In this document: positions 2,162-36,299 of the stretch, one piece after another
Layout of the letters: every line of letters begins with the position of its first letter
Numbering within the stretch: the first letter of the stretch is position 1
Source of the DNA: Deltaproteobacteria bacterium
GTDB lineage: Bacteria; Myxococcota_A; Polyangia; Haliangiales; J016
Reading direction: 5' to 3'
Assembly (NCBI GenBank): GCA_003696105.1
Contig: RFGE01000347.1
Coordinates: 1 to 36,522 of the forward strand
Length of the DNA: 36,522 nt
The notes under the pieces: generated by a model
Told to the model about the DNA's origin: nothing
Database searches by the model: none
The model's input: the letters and a program-made list of their open reading frames with translations, nothing else
Translations under genes and position numbers: made by a program

Positions 2162-4102
2162 TCACATTGCATCCCACTGCACTGCCAACGTGATCGACCG
2201 TCCCGGTGCAGCCACCGCCTGCCGGATCTCGTAGCGCTCGTCGGTGGCGTTGTCGACGCGCACCGTTGCGAGCAGCCCGGCGCCCAAACGGGCGTAGGCC
2301 GCCACGCCCAGCTCCGCGTGGGCCGCCAGCGTCGCGCCGCGGTCGACCTGATCATCTTCGTAACGCACGTGGGCACGCACGCCGCCGCGGCCGACCGCGG
2401 CCCCGAGTTCCAGCCACAGCCGGTGCTGCGGCAGGAAGTCCAGCGGCGTGCTGCCGAACCGGGGCGAGTACGCGTCCTGAAACGACCAGCTCGCAACCGC
2501 GCGCCATCGCCCGCGCGTGACCGTTGCCCGCGCATCGACGCCGCGCACAACCAGGTCGTCGACGTTGACCAGCTGCATCCGGTCGCCGTCGTAGCGAATC
2601 ATCCCGTCGGTCGCGCGGACGAACCCGCCGACCCGCGCCGACAGCCCGTCGGCCGGCGCGAGCACCACCGCGAGTTCGGTGAAGGTCGCCATCTCCGGAG
2701 CGAGCTCCGCGTTGCCGATGTCCGTGCGGTAGCGCTCCCGGAGGGTCGGCACGCGCCCCTTGCGCGCGCCGGTCCACTCGAGGGTCAGCGGGCGCGCCGG
2801 CGTCCACGCGAGCGTCAGCTTGGCCTCGGGCCACGGCGCGTGGCCCAGGCCGATGGGGGTCGCGATCCCGGCGGCCCCGTCGACGCGCACGCCTCCGCGC
2901 TCGTACTGCGCCCCGGCCGCAACCTGCGCGACCGTCGACCGCCCCTGCCCCGCGACGGCACCGTCGAGGTCTTCCACTCGCGCTCCCTCGGTGTCCAGGT
3001 ACGCCGCGCCCACGAGGTGCAACCACGGCGTCTGTGGGCGATTGACAACCAGTCCCGCGCCCGCGCGGTTGGCGTCGATGTGCTCGCCGCGGCGCACGTC
3101 GCTCAGCGACGCATCGGCGTAGTAGCGCGAGTCGCGCGCGAGCGCGTGCGCGTAGGCGCGCGCGTGAACGCGCAGCGACCCGGTGTCGATGTCGCCGGAC
3201 GCGCCGGCGCGCGCCGCTGTCTCCCCGGCGACGACGAGGACGTCCGACGACGCATCGTCCCCCGGTGGCGGCACGAAGCTGCGCCGCTGCGCCGACAGGT
3301 CGACCGTGACGCGCCGCTCCAGTTCGCGGCGCCATTCGAACCGCAACGCGGCCGTGAGCGCGCGGCGGCGCTCGTCGAGTTGCTCGCGCGTGCCGTCCGG
3401 CATCGCCACGGCGTAGTCGCGCGCGCCGAGTGCGCCGGCCACCGATCCGCGGACTGCCCAGCCGCGGCCGAGACCGGCGCGCGCCGTGGCCGACGCATCC
3501 GCGGCAGTCGCCATCGTCCCCTGCCCCCGTGCGCGCAGCATGCGCGCGCCGACCGCGTCGCGCGTGTGCACCTCGACGACGCCGCCCGGCCCACCGGCCC
3601 CGTCGATCGGCGACGACGGCGACGTGGCCACGCGAATCTGCTCGATGTCGGTCACCGGGATCGACGACAGATCGAACGTGCCGTAGTACGGCTCGTCGAC
3701 CGGAATGCCGTCGATTAGGATCTTGACCGCGCCCTTGCGCGCGCCGCGGATGTCGGCCTGCGCACCGCCGCGGCCGAGCGCCCGCACGCGCAACTCCGGC
3801 ACGTACTCGAGCGCCTCGGCGAGGTCCACGACGCCGAGTTGATCGAGATCCTCGCCGGTGAGCCGCAGTTCGGTGTCCCGGTCGAACTCCTTGTTCGGGC
3901 GCTCTCCCCACACCTCGACGACCTCCTCGGCCAGTTCGATCGGCGGCACGCTCTCGTCCGATGACGTTGGCTCGCCGCCCGCCGGCGCGGTGGACCGGGA
4001 CGCGACCGCCGACTCGCCGTCGGAATCGCCTCCGGCTGCGGGAGTGCCCGCCGCCGCGATCGCGGGAACGGCCCAGACGACGACCGCGGCCCAGCGCGTC
4101 AT
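2162..4102 (-). CDS. TonB-dependent outer-membrane receptor
   Basis: The protein has 646 aa. The start is ATG 4102, which overlaps the upstream stop as ATGA; a longer frame exists but would override this coupling. It has a signal peptide (MTRWAAVVVWAVPAIAAAG), a Ser/Pro-rich spacer, and a TonB box-like VVEVWGERP (61-69). The plug domain covers about 76-182 (LAEALEYVPELRVRALGRGG, IKILIDGIPVDEPYYG-type hairpin, GGPGGVVEVHT). A beta-barrel of about 460 residues ends in the family-typical VDNATDERYEIRQAVAAPGRS. Such receptors import scarce ligands (siderophores, cobalamin, glycans, metals) using TonB-ExbBD energy. The substrate is not readable from sequence, and no tonB/exbBD is in the window. 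It is the last gene of a three-gene unit with two lipoproteins. The terminal residue is Met rather than the usual aromatic BAM signal. Confidence 0.93.
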   Translation of the reverse strand: MTRWAAVVVWAVPAIAAAGTPAAGGDSDGESAVASRSTAPAGGEPTSSDESVPPIELAEEVVEVWGERPNKEFDRDTELRLTGEDLDQLGVVDLAEALEYVPELRVRALGRGGAQADIRGARKGAVKILIDGIPVDEPYYGTFDLSSIPVTDIEQIRVATSPSSPIDGAGGPGGVVEVHTRDAVGARMLRARGQGTMATAADASATARAGLGRGWAVRGSVAGALGARDYAVAMPDGTREQLDERRRALTAALRFEWRRELERRVTVDLSAQRRSFVPPPGDDASSDVLVVAGETAARAGASGDIDTGSLRVHARAYAHALARDSRYYADASLSDVRRGEHIDANRAGAGLVVNRPQTPWLHLVGAAYLDTEGARVEDLDGAVAGQGRSTVAQVAAGAQYERGGVRVDGAAGIATPIGLGHAPWPEAKLTLAWTPARPLTLEWTGARKGRVPTLRERYRTDIGNAELAPEMATFTELAVVLAPADGLSARVGGFVRATDGMIRYDGDRMQLVNVDDLVVRGVDARATVTRGRWRAVASWSFQDAYSPRFGSTPLDFLPQHRLWLELGAAVGRGGVRAHVRYEDDQVDRGATLAAHAELGVAAYARLGAGLLATVRVDNATDERYEIRQAVAAPGRSITLAVQWDAM

Positions 4103-4443
4103 GGCGCCTTGCACAGCCCCATGTTGTTGCACCCGCGCGACGGGGCCTCGCAGTCCTCGTCCCGCATGCACTCGTGCGTGCAGTGAGGGCCGCGGGAGTT
4201 GAACTGGAAACACACCAGATCGGCGGCACACCGATCGTCGGCGGGATCGCAGGCATCCATGAACCCGAGACCGCCGCCGTCCGGATTCGCGCCCGCCGCG
4301 TCCGCCGACCCGGCGGCGCCCCCGTCCGGCGCGCTGGCGACGCTCGCGTCCGGGCCGGGCGACTCCGTCGCCGCGTCGCCGCAGGCGACCGCGAGTGCCG
4401 CGGCGAGCGCCGCCGCGGGCCACCGCAAGCCGACGAACGGCAT
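4099..4443 (-). CDS. Small cysteine-rich lipoprotein
   Basis: The protein has 114 aa, starting at ATG 4443, one nucleotide after the upstream stop codon; an in-frame upstream extension would be repetitive and lacks a signal peptide. Its lipoprotein signal ends in LAVAC with Cys21 as the predicted lipidation site. An Ala/Gly/Pro/Asp-rich linker follows. The C-terminal module of about 45 residues contains eight Cys in the pattern DACDPADDRC...LVC...HCTHECMRDEDC...GC...LC, probably disulfide-bonded. Modules of this kind are frequent in myxobacterial surface proteins. Its stop overlaps the TonB receptor start by 4 bp (ATGA), implying translational coupling. I infer that it acts with the receptor, for example as a surface ligand-binding partner; no function is assigned. 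Confidence 0.8.
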   Translation of the reverse strand: MPFVGLRWPAAALAAALAVACGDAATESPGPDASVASAPDGGAAGSADAAGANPDGGGLGFMDACDPADDRCAADLVCFQFNSRGPHCTHECMRDEDCEAPSRGCNNMGLCKAP

Positions 4444-4444
4444 G

Positions 4445-5293
4445 TCAGTTGCCTCCGCCGCCGCCTCCTCCGCCGCCGCCTCCGCCACCGTCGAGTTTGT
4501 CGTTGACGTTGACGAGGTGGACGGTGTCGGCGCGCGCCAGGACGATGGCGGTCTTGACCGGATTGCCGCCGCCGTTTTGGCCGTCGTTGTCCTGCGGATA
4601 CGTCGCGGTGAGCGTGTACTGCCCGGGCGGCACGTTCAGGAACGCGACGCGCGCCTTGCCGCCGACCGGAGTCGATACCGTGACCGCCGGGTCGAGATCG
4701 CCCAGCGCGCCGACGAAGTACGGCCCGTCGCCCACCGGATTGCCCGCGGCGTCGGTGAGCGAGATGTCGGCGAGCAGCACGCCGTCGCGCGGCGAACCGT
4801 CGCCCTTGAGCAGATTGCCTTCGACGTACGCGGTGCCGGGCTGCATGACGACGGCGACCGTCGCATACTGGCGTGCGATGTCGGCTTGTGCGGCCACGTA
4901 CACATCGCGCGTCATCGGCGTTCCGGAGTACTTGGCGCGCGCGTTGACCGTCGGCAGATAGTTGCCCGCGAGACTGCCCGCGAGCGTGAACAACTGCTCG
5001 ACCGGAACGCCGTCGAGTGCGTAGGCTCCCGCCGCGTCGCTCGTGGTCGACAGCGGCGGTGTGATCCCTTCGGCGACCACCTCGGCGCCGGCCAGCGGCG
5101 TGCCGGCGAAATAGTCCATCACCGTACCGGACACCGCAGCCTGCGGCAGATCGGGGCCCGCGTCGGGGCCACCGGGGTCCGCCCCCGCATCGGCGCCGCC
5201 GGCCGGATCGGTCGGGTCGAGCGCACCGCCGACCTCACACGCGGCGGCGCACAGCGCGGCAGTGGACAGGGCGAACAAAACACAGCGTCTCAT
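4445..5293 (-). CDS. Lipoprotein with carboxypeptidase-regulatory-like beta-sandwich domains
   Basis: The protein has 282 aa. ATG 5293 is preceded by GAGGAG with an 8-nt gap, a good ribosome site. It has a lipoprotein signal with CAAAC (Cys19), then a Gly/Asp/Pro/Ala linker. Residues 52-110 resemble a CarboxypepD_reg-type domain (VSGTVMDYFAGTPLAGAEVVAEG ... SDAAGAYALDGVP). A second Ig-like region contains NVPPGQYTLTATYP. The protein ends in a run of 13 glycines and Asn, encoded by a perfect 15-bp tandem duplication (4452-4481). The next gene begins one base after its stop. Domains of this type occur in TonB receptors and surface glycan-binding proteins, so I infer a surface accessory protein for the downstream receptor. 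It is the first gene of the unit and has a sigma-54-like site upstream. Confidence 0.82.
   Translation of the reverse strand: MRRCVLFALSTAALCAAACEVGGALDPTDPAGGADAGADPGGPDAGPDLPQAAVSGTVMDYFAGTPLAGAEVVAEGITPPLSTTSDAAGAYALDGVPVEQLFTLAGSLAGNYLPTVNARAKYSGTPMTRDVYVAAQADIARQYATVAVVMQPGTAYVEGNLLKGDGSPRDGVLLADISLTDAAGNPVGDGPYFVGALGDLDPAVTVSTPVGGKARVAFLNVPPGQYTLTATYPQDNDGQNGGGNPVKTAIVLARADTVHLVNVNDKLDGGGGGGGGGGGGGN
4452..4481 (+). repeat. 15-bp perfect tandem duplication encoding the Gly tail
   Basis: CCTCCGCCGCCGCCT occurs twice head-to-tail (4452-4466 and 4467-4481). On the minus strand it encodes the 13-glycine tail of the lipoprotein, a few codons before a stop that is one base from the next start codon. 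The unit is a multiple of 3, so length changes would keep the frame. Confidence 0.85.
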
Positions 5294-5350: not shown

Positions 5351-5366
5351 AGCAACATCCTTGCCA
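5351..5366 (-). promoter_or_regulatory. Sigma-54-type -24/-12 promoter of the lipoprotein/TonB receptor unit
   Basis: The minus strand reads TGGCAAGGATGTTGCT, against the known consensus TGGCACG-N4-TTGCW. Eleven of twelve defined positions match, and the invariant GG and GC have the correct spacing. Predicted transcription start is near 5340, giving a leader of about 47 nt with GAGGAG before the start codon at 5293. Further upstream at 5393-5398 there is a GTTACG half-site resembling the palindromes at 7819 and 35585. Confidence 0.6.
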
Positions 5367-5506
5367 CCAAGGTTCCCTCGCCGCGCCGCGTAGTTACGAA
5401 TCCGGCCCCTGGGGCCCGAAGCCCCCGGCGGCGGCGCCCTCCCCCGGAGGACGACCCGGGCCGCGCGGCTCGACGACCGCGGCGGGCCCGGCGCGCCGCC
5501 GCCCGC

Positions 5507-6811
5507 TCAGCGTTCGTACAACAGGCCCGCGTAGACCGCCTGGCGCCGAAACCGCAGCGCGTCCGTCGCAAACTCGTTCGACCACAGCCCGTAGCGCGCC
5601 TCGGCGGTCCACCCGCCTGCGAGCGGCCGGGCCAGGTGGACGACCAGCCCGTTGCGGTTCTCGTCCTCGATCGATACGCCGGTCTGCGCGTTGACGTCTC
5701 GGGCGACCAACAGGCCGTCGACGAACACGTTGTACAGCACGGTGAGCTTCGCCGTCGCCGATACGCCGAACGCCACGTCGGTCGTCACGGCCGCGTCGAC
5801 TCGATGGCGGACCAGCGACTGCCCGAAGCTGTTCGAGTCGTCCACCTGGAGTTCGTAGCGCGCTGCGTAGACGCGGTCACCGGTGTAGGTCACTTCGATC
5901 GACGCGACGTGAAACAGGTCGACCCGACCGAGCGACGGCGCTGGACACGGCGGGTCGCATGCGTCAGTGAGCGCGGCGCCGGCGTAGTCGCGGCGCTCGA
6001 GCCGGTACGCTGCCGCAACCTCCACGGAGCTGGCGTCGGCCTCGCCGGCGCTGTCGGAGCGCCACATCTCCGTCGTGTAGCGCGCGCCGTAGTGGTCGGC
6101 CCGGTAGTCGAACACGCCGTCGGGCTTGAACGTGAACGCGCGCAGTCCCGCGTGCAGCGCGAACCGGTGGCGCTCCGGCCCGACGAGGACGAGTTCCCCG
6201 CGCGCATCGAACGACCGGAAGTTGCGCGCCGTGTCGACTCGATCGTCGCCGATCGCGTCGTAGTAGGAGCCGACGGCGCGCACGATTGCGCGGCGAGACG
6301 CCAGCGCCGCGGCGTACGCCCCCCGTGCCGCCACGATCGCCACGTCCTCGTCGGACGGCGTCCGGCCCGCGTCGTCGCGCGCGTCGCCGAAGAACCGCTT
6401 GGCACCGGCGAACAGATCGTACGACAGCCGATGGCTCGCGCGCGGCCGCACTCCGCCCCGCACGCGCGCGCCGACGCGCACGAGCGGCGCGGCCTGGACG
6501 GCGACGTCCTCGCCGGCGCGCCGCTCGATCCGGTGCACGTTGGTGTCGTACTCCGCGCCGGCCTCGACCTGGACGCGGGTCGGCTCCGCGCGCGCGGGCG
6601 TTGCGGCGATCGCCGCGATCGCGGCGGCGGCGACCGCCCACCGCGCACCGGGGCGCCGGCCGACCGGCGCGGCCGGCAGACGCCGCGGCGGCGCGGGGGC
6701 CGCGCGGCGACACGACCGGCTCGGGGTGGCCCGGCCACCCGGCGGGCACCGCGGTCGGACGCGCGCCGGCAAAGTCGCCGCGGAACCGACTCCGATCCGT
6801 GCTCCGGTCAT
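5507..6811 (-). CDS. Outer-membrane beta-barrel protein of unknown function
   Basis: The protein has 434 aa, starting at ATG 6811, which overlaps the upstream stop (ATGA). The first 55 residues are Arg/Pro-rich; a hydrophobic stretch ending in AATPARA (about residues 58-75) looks like the true signal sequence, so an internal start is possible. The mature part has alternating strands rich in Tyr/Arg/Asp, starting VQVEAGAEYDTNVHRIERR and ending LRFRRQAVYAGLLYER. This is typical of an outer-membrane barrel of 14-18 strands resembling surface-assembly or TPR-linked OMPs. It is cotranscribed with the coiled-coil periplasmic gene. I see no named family. A pore, an assembly factor or a structural barrel are all possible. 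Confidence 0.72.
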   Translation of the reverse strand: MTGARIGVGSAATLPARVRPRCPPGGRATPSRSCRRAAPAPPRRLPAAPVGRRPGARWAVAAAAIAAIAATPARAEPTRVQVEAGAEYDTNVHRIERRAGEDVAVQAAPLVRVGARVRGGVRPRASHRLSYDLFAGAKRFFGDARDDAGRTPSDEDVAIVAARGAYAAALASRRAIVRAVGSYYDAIGDDRVDTARNFRSFDARGELVLVGPERHRFALHAGLRAFTFKPDGVFDYRADHYGARYTTEMWRSDSAGEADASSVEVAAAYRLERRDYAGAALTDACDPPCPAPSLGRVDLFHVASIEVTYTGDRVYAARYELQVDDSNSFGQSLVRHRVDAAVTTDVAFGVSATAKLTVLYNVFVDGLLVARDVNAQTGVSIEDENRNGLVVHLARPLAGGWTAEARYGLWSNEFATDALRFRRQAVYAGLLYER

Positions 6812-7782
6812 CGCGCCCGCAGCGCGCGCAGCCGCGCCTCGATCGCGCGGCGCTGGCGCTCGAGCCGCTCGCGGCGGGCGCGCACCTGGTCGCGCGCGCG
6901 CCGGGCGGCATCGGCCTTGGCCGCCGGGTCGTCGGCCGCTTCGGCGCGGCGAAGCGCAGCGAGCGTGTCTGCGTCCACGACTTCGACCAGCACGATCGCC
7001 GGGTCGGCCGACGAGCCGGGCTCGCCGACCGCCCCCGCGGCGTCGTCGGGATCGGCCTCGGGCGCGCCCGCCCCCACGTCCGCGTTGCCTCCGGCCGCCG
7101 TGTCGGCGCCCGCCTGGCGACTGGTCGTGCGCCGCGGCCGGTTGTCGTCGAACAAGTCGGCCTCGTCGGCGCGCGCCCGCTGCTTGCGCAACCGGGCCAT
7201 CTTCGCGTACCGGAGTTCGCGGCGGGTTAGCAGTCGTTCCTCGCGCTCGAGCCGCCGCGCGGTGTCCTCCAGCAGCTTGGCCTGCGCGCGCAACTCTGCC
7301 TCGTCGGCCAACGGATCGATGCGCTCGCTCGGCATGACGATGCGCCGCGCGGGCGGCGCGAGCTTCGCCAGCGCGTCGGCCCTCCAGGCGGCCAGCGCCC
7401 GCCGCCGCGGCTCCGGAGGCGCCGCGGCGAGTTCGGCGTCGATCGCGCGCACGAGCGCGCGGCGCACCTCGCGCAGCCGCCGATCGACCGCACGCACCGC
7501 CGCGTCGATCGCCGACAGCCGCTGCGCGATGGCGCGCGCGTCAGCCAGAGCGCGGCGCAAAGACCGGTCCCGCCGCCACGACGACCGCTTGCGCTTGAGC
7601 GCGTCCACCTGGGCGACCGCGCGGGCCAGTTCCGCTTCCCGTTGCGCCTTGTCGCGGGCATACCGCGCGCGCTCGGCCTCGAGCTGTGCGACCTGGGCGC
7701 GCAGGTCGTCGGCGGGCGCGGCCGCGGCGGGCCGGACGGCCAGCGCGATCGCGGCGGCCGCGAAAACCAACGTGCGGAGCAT
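6808..7782 (-). CDS. Periplasmic coiled-coil protein of unknown function
   Basis: The protein has 324 aa from ATG 7782. An in-frame TTG at 7800 would lie upstream of the predicted transcription start. A signal peptide (MLRTLVFAAAAIALAVRPAAAAP) is followed by an almost continuous Arg/Ala/Glu-rich helix (LRAQVAQLEAERARYARDKAQ onward) to about residue 215. Next comes an Ala/Gly/Asp linker, then a segment VVDADTLAALRRAEAADDP and a second Arg-rich helix to the C-terminus. The architecture recalls EnvC/septal-ring-like or tether proteins of the periplasm, but no catalytic motif is visible. It overlaps the barrel gene by 4 bp, suggesting a paired periplasm/outer-membrane module. The upstream region carries a sigma-54-like promoter and inverted repeats. 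Confidence 0.7.
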   Translation of the reverse strand: MLRTLVFAAAAIALAVRPAAAAPADDLRAQVAQLEAERARYARDKAQREAELARAVAQVDALKRKRSSWRRDRSLRRALADARAIAQRLSAIDAAVRAVDRRLREVRRALVRAIDAELAAAPPEPRRRALAAWRADALAKLAPPARRIVMPSERIDPLADEAELRAQAKLLEDTARRLEREERLLTRRELRYAKMARLRKQRARADEADLFDDNRPRRTTSRQAGADTAAGGNADVGAGAPEADPDDAAGAVGEPGSSADPAIVLVEVVDADTLAALRRAEAADDPAAKADAARRARDQVRARRERLERQRRAIEARLRALRAR

Positions 7783-7799
7783 GGTCTGCGTGGATCTCA

Positions 7800-7815
7800 A
7801 GCAGCTCCCGTGCCA
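7800..7815 (-). promoter_or_regulatory. Sigma-54-type -24/-12 promoter of the coiled-coil/barrel unit
   Basis: The minus strand reads TGGCACGGGAGCTGCT, matching TGGCACG-N4-TTGCW at eleven of twelve defined positions (first T of TTGC is C). The GG/GC spacing is correct. The predicted start near 7789 gives a leader of only about 7 nt before ATG 7782. Inverted repeats at 7819-7852 lie immediately upstream, and the NtrC-type activator gene ends at 7928. Confidence 0.55.
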
Positions 7816-7818
7816 GTC

Positions 7819-7852
7819 GTTACGCGTGTAAGCTACCTACACTCCTAGTGTA
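7819..7852. promoter_or_regulatory. Cluster of inverted-repeat operator candidates
   Basis: There are two adjacent dyads: GTTACGCGTGTAAG (7819-7832; arms TTAC/GTAA) and TACACTCCTAGTGTA (7838-7852; perfect 6-bp arms around 3 nt). Three GTGTA/TACAC half-sites begin at 7826, 7838 and 7848, about one helical turn apart. They sit at about -30 to -63 of the predicted sigma-54 start. The first dyad matches the one upstream of cdnL (35585-35598) at 11 of 14 bases. Binding by the adjacent NtrC-type regulator is an inference. Confidence 0.5.
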
Positions 7853-7927
7853 CGCAACTCGGCCACCTCGGCCGTCTGCGACCGCGCGGCGCACGCGCCT
7901 CAGATTTTCGAGACGTCGCGCCAGCCG

Positions 7928-9307
<1,380 letters not shown>

Positions 9308-9316
9308 CGCAACCTC

Positions 9317-10768
9317 TCATGCCGTCCGCGGCGCCGCGGTGCCGCCGTCGACCGCCGGCAACGTCAGGCAGAATACCGTGCGCTCGTCCGCGGCGTTGCG
9401 CACCTCGATCGTACCGCCCGCCTCCTCGACGATTTCGCGCGCGAACGCCAACCCGAGGCCAGTTCCCTTTTCCTTGGTGGTGAAAAACGGCTCGAACATG
9501 CGCGCCATCACGTCCTCCGGGATTGGCTCGCGCGCGCTGTTCCACACTTCCACCACCACCGCGTCGCCCCGACGCCGAGCGCGCAGGCCGGCGCGCCCGG
9601 AGCTCGCCTGTACCGCGTTGCGCACCAGGTTCATGAGCGCCCGCTTGATCTGGTTGCGGTCGGCCCGACACATGGCGCCGTCGACGTCGACGTCGACCTC
9701 GACGCCCGCGCGCGACGCCTCCGCGCGCACCGCGTCGGCCACTTCGGCGCCCACCGCGGCCAGATCGACCGGCTCCGGCTGCGGTGCCGGCCGCCGTGCG
9801 TACGCGAGAAAGTCGCCGACGACCGCCTCGAGGTGGTCGAGTTCGGTGTCGATCCGATCGACGTGCGCGCGCAACCTTGCGTCGCCGGCCAGCTCGTCGC
9901 GCAGGATGCCGGCGAACAACTTGATCCCGCCGAGCGGGTTGCGCACCTCGTGCGCGATTCCCGACAGCATCATCTGCATCCGCTCGTCGCGCGCGCGCAA
10001 GCCTCGGCGCATGTCCTCCATCGTTCGCGCCAGCAGGCCGATCTCGTCGGACGCCGGCACGTCGATCGCGGTCGCCAGATCGCCGCGGCCGATCCGCTCG
10101 GCCGCCGCCGCCAGCCGGCGCACCGGCCGCGTGATGCGCGTCGCGACCACGACCGATACCAGCAACCCGAGCACCGCGAACGCCGCGCCGTAGCCGATCA
10201 GCGTGCGGCGCAGGTCGGCCAGCCGATCGAAGTAGGTCGCCGGCGCATCGACTCCGACCGCCAGCGCCGCGCCGGCGTCGGCCGCCGCGGCGCGCGCGTA
10301 GCCCGCCTTGTACAGCCGGCCGTCACGCCCCTCGAACAACACGGACGCCACGGGTCCACCGCCCGCGAACACCCGCGCCAGTTCGGCCGCGTCCTCGCGC
10401 AGTTGGTAGTACGTCGCACCGATCGGCACGCCGTCGTCCGTGTCGCACACCGACGTGTGCCGTTGGGTGAATGCGTAGATGCGCGCCACGCCGGTCGCGC
10501 GCCGGACCGCGTCGAGCCGTGCGCGGCATTGCTGAAAGCGCACGTCGTCCTCCATGCCCGGCTCGAGCCGCGCCAGGCTCGGGTCGCGCAACTCGGTGGC
10601 CGCCGCCGCCGCGATCGCCGCGAGGCGGCTGCCGAGTTCCGCGTCGAGGTTGTCCCGCGCCGTCTCGTACGCGACGAACGCGAACACCGCGAACAGCGCC
10701 GCGGCCGGCGCGACGAACGCGAAGAGGAGCTTGACGAGGATCGTCGGCCGCGGCCGCCGTGCGGGCAC
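9317..10768 (-). CDS. Membrane-bound sensor histidine kinase (partner of the NtrC-type regulator)
   Basis: The protein has 483 aa from GTG 10768. Membrane helix 1 (about 10-34), an extracytoplasmic sensor of about 150 residues with Cys81 and Cys108, membrane helix 2 (about 188-210), HAMP (211-262), H-box with phospho-acceptor His273 ([13 protein letters not shown]), N-box ([18 protein letters not shown], 372-389), F-box (MFEPFFTTK) and G2 GTGLGL (435-440). The G1 box is unusual: [11 protein letters not shown] replaces DxGxG. This resembles the NSG-PIP variant seen in some NtrB/AtoS-like kinases but also lacks its Gly. TAGACT lies 6 nt before the GTG, so the kinase-regulator pair probably has its own leaderless promoter. 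The signal sensed is unknown. Confidence 0.93.
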
Positions 10769-10780
10769 GCCGTCAGTCTA
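10766..10780 (-). promoter_or_regulatory. Leaderless-type -10 element and GTG start of the histidine kinase gene
   Basis: On the minus strand TAGACT (10780-10775) is followed by 6 nt and GTG (10768-10766). It lies in the 45-bp gap after argC, so the two-component pair may be transcribed independently of the ribosomal-protein operon. Confidence 0.5.
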
Positions 10781-35746: not shown

Positions 35747-35762
35747 TGGCACCCAACTTGCT
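35747..35762 (+). promoter_or_regulatory. Sigma-54-type -24/-12 promoter of cdnL
   Basis: TGGCACCCAACTTGCT matches TGGCACG-N4-TTGCW at eleven of twelve defined positions. The predicted start near 35773 gives a leader of about 40 nt, with GGGAGG 8 nt before ATG 35814. Elsewhere in the gap 35503-35813, a GATAAT hexamer (35712-35717) could serve a vegetative promoter but has no good -35. Confidence 0.6.
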
Positions 35763-35813: not shown

Positions 35814-36299
35814 ATGGAGTTCAAGATCGGCGACAAAGCTGTCTACCCCGCGCAGGGCGTCGCGGAGGTGATTGGGATCGACAACAAGGAGATCAACAAC
35901 ACCGTCTGCTCGTTCTACGTCCTGCGCGTGCTCGACACCGACATGCAGATCCTCGTGCCCAAGGACAAGGCGGACCAGGTGGGGCTGCGGCCCGTCGCTA
36001 CCGAGGACGAAGTCGAGGAGGTGTTCGACATCCTGCGGGAGACCGACGTCCACATCGACAAGCAGACGTGGAACCGCCGCTACCGCGGGTTCATGGAAAA
36101 GATCAAAACGGGATCGCTGTTCGAGGTGGCCGAGGTGTACCGCGACCTGTACCGCCTCAAGAGCACGAAGACCCTCAGCTTTGGTGAGCGCCGCATGCTC
36201 GATACGGCCAAGAACCTGATCGTGAAGGAGCTGTCCGTCGCGCGCGACTGGAGCGAGCAGCAGGTCGAGAAGGAACTCGAAAAGGCGTTCGCGGCGTAA
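35814..36299 (+). CDS. cdnL: CarD-family transcription regulator (CdnL type)
   Basis: The protein has 161 aa from ATG 35814; GGGAGG 8 nt upstream supports this start, and the longer frame has no family match. The N-terminal RNA-polymerase-interaction Tudor-like domain (MEFKIGDKAVYPAQGVAEV) binds the RNAP beta subunit. The C-terminal helical domain carries the conserved Trp (W86 in DKQTWNRRYRGFMEKIKTG) that contacts the promoter at the upstream edge of the bubble, and ends KLSFGERRMLDTAKNLIVKELS-like helices. Length and lack of an HMGA tail identify CdnL rather than CarD proper. In Myxococcus CdnL is an essential activator of rRNA and housekeeping promoters. A strong terminator follows. Confidence 0.96.
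   Translation: MEFKIGDKAVYPAQGVAEVIGIDNKEINNTVCSFYVLRVLDTDMQILVPKDKADQVGLRPVATEDEVEEVFDILRETDVHIDKQTWNRRYRGFMEKIKTGSLFEVAEVYRDLYRLKSTKTLSFGERRMLDTAKNLIVKELSVARDWSEQQVEKELEKAFAA

Follow-up and report, generated by a model that had tools for sequence, protein, structure and literature searches.

The locus analysed here raises the question of whether a sensor kinase and its adjoining NtrC-type regulator control the envelope genes that lie beside them and, if so, which of those genes they reach and through what kind of message. An earlier, sequence-only reading had joined two minus-strand units, a coiled-coil and barrel pair and a set of two lipoproteins with a TonB receptor, into one five-gene surface module under sigma-54. 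The window, meaning the whole stretch of 36,522 nucleotides that was analysed, contains the following features relevant to this proposal.

2162–4102, minus strand: TonB-dependent receptor, plug and barrel (Pfam); probable separate unit
4099–4443, minus strand: small Cys-rich lipoprotein; probable separate unit
4445–5293, minus strand: lipoprotein with a CarboxypepD_reg domain (Pfam); probable separate unit
5351–5366, minus strand: sigma-54 promoter of the lipoprotein/TonB unit, TGGCAAGGATGTTGCT; leader of about 46 nt with a GAGGAG Shine-Dalgarno sequence
5507–6811, minus strand: putative outer-membrane beta-barrel with signal peptide (ten-member family)
6808–7782, minus strand: secreted all-helical coiled-coil protein, 324 aa (ten-member family; AlphaFold2 model)
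7800–7815, minus strand: sigma-54 -24/-12 promoter of the coiled-coil/barrel unit, TGGCACGGGAGCTGCT; kept in 11/11 orthologous units
7826–7842, no strand: GTGTA-N7-TACAC repeat, within 7819–7852; window-specific
7899–7912, no strand: conserved palindromic element CTCAGATTTTCGAG, probable regulator UAS, centred near -117; upstream of 11/11 orthologous promoters
7928–9307, minus strand: NtrC/AtoC-type response regulator with receiver, Sigma54_activat AAA+ and Fis-type HTH/HTH_8 domains (Pfam, motifs, orthologues)
9317–10768, minus strand: sensor histidine kinase with HAMP, HisKA and HATPase_c domains, GTG start (Pfam; orthologues beside the regulator in most relatives)
10775–10780, minus strand: TAGACT, a -10-type element ending 6 nt before the kinase GTG (sequence; genome-wide TANNNT peak at -12)

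We consider it highly likely that these features describe a two-component switch acting through sigma-54 on a conserved envelope unit, in which the palindrome would be the site of the regulator, the transcripts would be leaderless or nearly so, and the lipoprotein/TonB genes would form a unit apart. The elements, their conservation, their spacing and the missing Shine-Dalgarno sequences come from sequence and its comparison, while binding, activation, 5' ends and the cellular role are what we infer from them.

The regulatory pair is as the sequence-only reading had it, an NtrC-type activator paired with a kinase directly upstream of the first unit: the Pfam domains and the helix-turn-helix are present, and the regulator carries a Walker A motif (GESGTGKE) and a GAFTGA loop, with a Sigma54_activat match of 249 bits. 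It does not reach the NCBIfam cut-offs for AtoC, ZraR, NtrC and NtrX, scoring 470 of 714 bits for AtoC and 419 of 760 for ZraR. Relatives were located by a codon pattern for the recognition helix of the regulator, which had a single match in 23 of the 28 genomes searched in the order, the genome of the window included; scans of genome contigs and viral contigs with 8-residue peptides, and a tblastn search of plasmids, found no relatives. Among the neighbourhoods of 20 relatives compared around these matches, identity to the window proteins is about 50% for the kinase and 69–74% for the regulator, the two genes are adjacent in most, and the recognition helix is nearly invariant. The pair comes after rplM-rpsI in several relatives, with argC intervening in one. 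Six relatives (L206, L208, L210, L212, L214 and L215) have the regulator, with the coiled-coil and barrel genes absent within about 6–9 kb downstream; enough sequence is available there for this absence to suggest that the regulator has other duties. For the kinase-regulator genes themselves we infer a vegetative, leaderless-type promoter at TAGACT, whose position 6 nt before the kinase GTG fits the genome-wide peak of TANNNT described below.

Both -24/-12 elements are present where they had been reported, co-directional and with correct GG/GC spacing, and TGGCACGGGAGCTGCT and TGGCAAGGATGTTGCT have one mismatch each against TGGCACG-N4-TTGCW. Scored with an approximate sigma-54 matrix, modelled on the published consensus and controlled by its own reversal, 7800–7815 reaches 17.0 and 5351–5366 reaches 18.6 of a maximum of 20.1, and both are within the top eleven promoter-positioned sites in the first 1.02 Mb of the genome. 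Counting the raw pattern is of little use, as TGGCAC-N5-TTGCW with at most one mismatch has 133 matches in the genome against 180 for its reversal; because the reversed pattern is as common as the forward one, such counts were rejected as evidence and position alone is informative. Genes were called by codon usage in 1.02 Mb, and later 1.71 Mb, of the genome, with start codons predicted without a Shine-Dalgarno term. In the 1.71 Mb sample, about 60% of which consists of contigs picked for containing pattern matches, 48 of 92 sites of at least 13 bits are intergenic, co-directional and no more than 150 nt from a start, as compared with 3 of 108 for the reversed matrix. Contigs taken regardless of matches (0.67 Mb) give 18 promoter-positioned sites of at least 11 bits against a single one for the control. 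The genome holds one copy of rpoN (one Sigma54_DBD match, 222 bits), and lipoproteins account for 17 of 55 sigma-54 targets, an enrichment of about 4-fold (P = 2e-5).

A further sigma-54 site in the window, TGGCACCCAACTTGCT at 35747–35762 on the plus strand, precedes a CarD/CdnL-type gene (35814–36299) with a normal Shine-Dalgarno leader, and such a site also precedes the CarD gene of the relative L155. A CarD gene under sigma-54 would be notable because CdnL and sigma-54 are both essential in Myxococcus xanthus. For sigma-54 this is stated in a regulon survey (PMC12316311).

The coiled-coil and barrel genes of the first envelope unit are found downstream of the regulator in ten relatives, separated from it in some by two or three unrelated genes, and each belongs to a family of ten members, with 34–43% identity to the window copy for the coiled-coil protein, which has no Pfam match, and 32–41% for the barrel, for which Pfam and PDB searches gave no relative. 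By HMM search, neither gene has a second copy in the 1.71 Mb genome sample. The AlphaFold2 model of the coiled-coil protein is helical, with a mean pLDDT of 76; structure comparison linked it weakly to generic helical proteins, with no match reaching E≤0.001, and its PDB profile matches (designed helical bundles and other coiled coils) were not taken as homology. The barrel is putatively so named from its signal peptide and the alternating strands in its sequence, a single-sequence structure model having been uninformative. Its ATG overlaps the stop codon of the coiled-coil gene, which makes translational coupling likely. In five relatives a small ORF (78–128 aa) lies 3' of the barrel, and four of the five (104–128 aa) resemble small Cys-rich lipoproteins. 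A sigma-54 site stands before the coiled-coil gene in all eleven cases, that is, the window and ten relatives. In nine of them it is 12–18 nt from the start, and in the other two, which are relatives belonging to the same genus, it is further away, at 38 and about 90 nt. The expectation that the -24/-12 motif of the first unit would be conserved in orthologous regions is thus borne out. As far as comparison among the relatives goes, kinase, regulator, coiled-coil protein and barrel are one unit conserved across the order.

The site through which the regulator would act had been sought in 7819–7852. The GTGTA-N7-TACAC repeat found there is absent from 10 of 10 relatives and was rejected as the activator site for that reason, and the palindrome at 7899–7912 is the better candidate. 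With the consensus CTCAG[AT]NTTCTGAG, the palindrome is found 56–100 nt upstream of the sigma-54 site in all 11 coiled-coil promoters, and its leave-one-out score lies above 200 of 200 shuffles in ten; it is weak in one relative, where 11 of 200 shuffles match the score. No second palindrome of at least 15 bits occurs outside these promoters in 257 kb of the relatives' loci, nor, apart from the one at 7899, is there any in the window, the region upstream of the kinase-regulator genes included, where it would have pointed to autoregulation. The copy at 7899–7912 is the top palindrome match in the 1.71 Mb genome sample, and only the two top matches in that sample, this one and position 6915 of L093, combine at least 11 bits with a nearby sigma-54 site. 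The palindrome is probably the binding site of the regulator, and because promoter and palindrome are kept in 10 of 10 unit-bearing relatives despite the inserted genes, the regulator very probably acts through sigma-54 to turn on the coiled-coil and barrel genes.

The assignment of the palindrome to the regulator is a matter of sequence, and two-component regulators often act at a distance, so it is conceivable that the palindrome serves some other conserved protein, such as a repressor or a nucleoid protein, and that the neighbouring regulator acts elsewhere, as the six relatives that keep the regulator with no coiled-coil and barrel genes nearby might suggest. We think this unlikely, however, given that palindrome and sigma-54 site come together, spaced as is typical of enhancers and close to a conserved activator, and that conservation extends to the recognition helix as well as to the palindrome.

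Binding of the palindrome by the regulator, which we prefer, is also consistent with the second genomic match. At position 6915 of L093 the palindrome lies 43 nt before a sigma-54 site, and the operon behind this promoter encodes a lipoprotein with a lamin-tail domain, a protein with a PPDK_N domain and a porin. In a cross-check independent of the building of the motif, a relative of another family has two genes, one lamin-tail-like and one PPDK-like, that are related to those of the L093 operon and likewise have a palindrome and a sigma-54 site in front of them; by this correspondence a second target operon is common to two families. At 1456–1516 of L171 (relative G015), a palindrome and a leaderless sigma-54 site precede a gene for a universal-stress-like protein, a possible further member of the regulon.

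The five genes of the proposed surface module do lie at the reported positions, and Pfam confirms the TonB receptor and the CarboxypepD_reg lipoprotein. That they constitute one uptake module, with the neighbouring regulator switching on both units, was suggested by the adjacency of the units and by the good co-directional sigma-54 site that each possesses, but we now regard it as very improbable, since the palindrome is missing from the lipoprotein/TonB promoter, where the best score is -1.9 bits, and in the relatives it is other genes that lie 3' of the barrel. In the 20 neighbourhoods no match to the lipoprotein/TonB genes was found, and what is conserved with the kinase and regulator is a two-gene unit and not the five-gene order that had been anticipated. 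Control by the regulator is supported for the coiled-coil and barrel genes, with their conserved promoter and palindrome, and is not supported for the lipoprotein and TonB genes. Because the latter are not beside the kinase-regulator pair in relatives and their promoter is without the palindrome, they are probably a separate sigma-54 unit under another activator. The -24 region of their promoter overlaps a small inverted repeat, CCTTG-GTGG-CAAGG on the minus strand (window 5359–5372).

Among promoter-positioned sigma-54 sites of the 1.71 Mb sample, 32 of 70 are 12–15 nt before the start codon and the remainder are scattered, and a Shine-Dalgarno sequence is present in none of 34 short-spaced genes as opposed to 21 of 31 long-spaced ones, a combination that predicts leaderless mRNAs for the short-spaced class. 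In 18 relatives of the order, the positions of bare ATGs counted from exact sites peak at 12 nt (36) and 13 nt (32), no other distance having more than 8; 68 of 129 ATGs are thus at 12 or 13 nt, and a C precedes 65 of the 68, as expected if the A of the ATG is the transcription start. For sites with a coding ORF, 38 of 47 ORFs begin at 12 or 13 nt, many of them with a signal peptide from that very codon on. Among the short-spaced genes is one for a flagellar rod protein that resembles FlgB (L100), and flagellar rod genes of the FlgB type are a classical class of sigma-54 target. Nor is the pattern restricted to sigma-54: of 844 genes with a gap on their upstream side, 160 have TANNNT at -12 to -16, which is about 10 times background, and as only 21% of the genes so preceded have a Shine-Dalgarno sequence, leaderless translation appears to extend beyond sigma-54 genes and looks general in the lineage, with sigma-54 promoters taking part. 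The idea that the 12–15 nt spacing merely reflects misplaced start codons, the true ones lying further downstream behind leaders, draws on the prediction of starts without protein data but is the least probable of the alternatives, being contradicted by the same peak among bare ATGs in relatives, by the selection of starts with no Shine-Dalgarno term, by the preceding C and the signal peptides that begin at the predicted codon, and by the matching peak of the sigma-70-like TANNNT at -12.

The promoter of the coiled-coil gene in the window lies 17 nt before the ATG, with no Shine-Dalgarno sequence and a predicted leader of about 4–7 nt, so that the unit is short-leadered and not strictly leaderless. 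We think it probable that the order has two classes of sigma-54 promoter, one leadered with a Shine-Dalgarno sequence and the other leaderless with the AUG as the first codon of the mRNA, that the coiled-coil/barrel regulon, whose activator site would be CTCAG[AT]NTTCTGAG, falls at the short-leader end of the latter, and that activator-gated transcription would in this manner be tied to leaderless translation.

A mechanism can be proposed along these lines. A signal would be received by the membrane kinase, which would pass phosphate to the NtrC-type regulator; the phosphorylated regulator would bind the palindrome at 7899–7912, about 80–120 nt upstream of the start, and DNA looping would bring it to the sigma-54 polymerase at 7800–7815, leading to activation. 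Transcription would start near 7787–7789, either at the start codon or a few nucleotides ahead of it, and the coiled-coil protein would be translated from a near-5'-terminal AUG, with the barrel following by coupling. Two proteins would thus be encoded by the message, the coiled-coil one secreted and the other putatively an outer-membrane barrel, and in several relatives a small lipoprotein would join them. Many sigma-54 promoters of the order, at 12–15 nt, would likewise give leaderless mRNAs, as would many vegetative promoters. Considering that the targets are secreted, lipoprotein or porin-like, and that lipoproteins are enriched among sigma-54 targets, the role is probably a response to envelope integrity.

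With this proposal a near-universal two-component system of the order, for which we found no description, gains a likely job, together with a candidate binding site and two or more target operons, and two conserved envelope protein families with no Pfam entries gain a context for study. The spacing moreover predicts that activator-gated sigma-54 transcription feeds leaderless translation in the order. The open-access papers searched gave no account of leaderless mRNAs driven by sigma-54, an absence that is weak evidence. The word 'leaderless' does not occur in the sigma-54 regulon surveys PMC12316311 and PMC3162934, and no sigma-54 leaderless class was seen in term searches of transcription-start maps. 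Leaderless surveys restricted to sigma-70 boxes would have missed such genes.

Among known systems, the closest in layout are ZraSR-ZraP and AtoSC, which share with the present system the receiver-AAA+-Fis HTH arrangement, the adjacent HAMP kinase, a palindromic upstream site and a sigma-54 promoter beside the regulator gene. The target of ZraSR is the periplasmic protein ZraP, whereas the targets here are a coiled-coil protein and a putative barrel outside Pfam, and the regulator scores below the ZraR and AtoC cut-offs. Unlike in ZraSR, no regulator palindrome (at least 15 bits, in the window) lies upstream of the kinase-regulator genes, and in contrast to both systems the kinase-regulator operon seems to be driven by a non-sigma-54 promoter of its own and the target mRNAs are predicted to be leaderless or nearly so. 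The enrichment of lipoproteins among the sigma-54 targets resembles the theme of sigma-54 as a controller of the bacterial exterior, put forward in 2011 with a promoter window of -50 to 300 nt to the translation start (PMC3162934). A survey of leaderless genes of the same year, which considered Pribnow-like boxes only, counted the delta-proteobacteria among the groups that have them (PMC3160421). The genes of that survey with TANNNT at -12 are like those described here in their fixed distance from promoter to start and their missing Shine-Dalgarno sequence, but differ in the promoter itself, which in the present case is a sigma-54 -24/-12 element predicted to need an activator.
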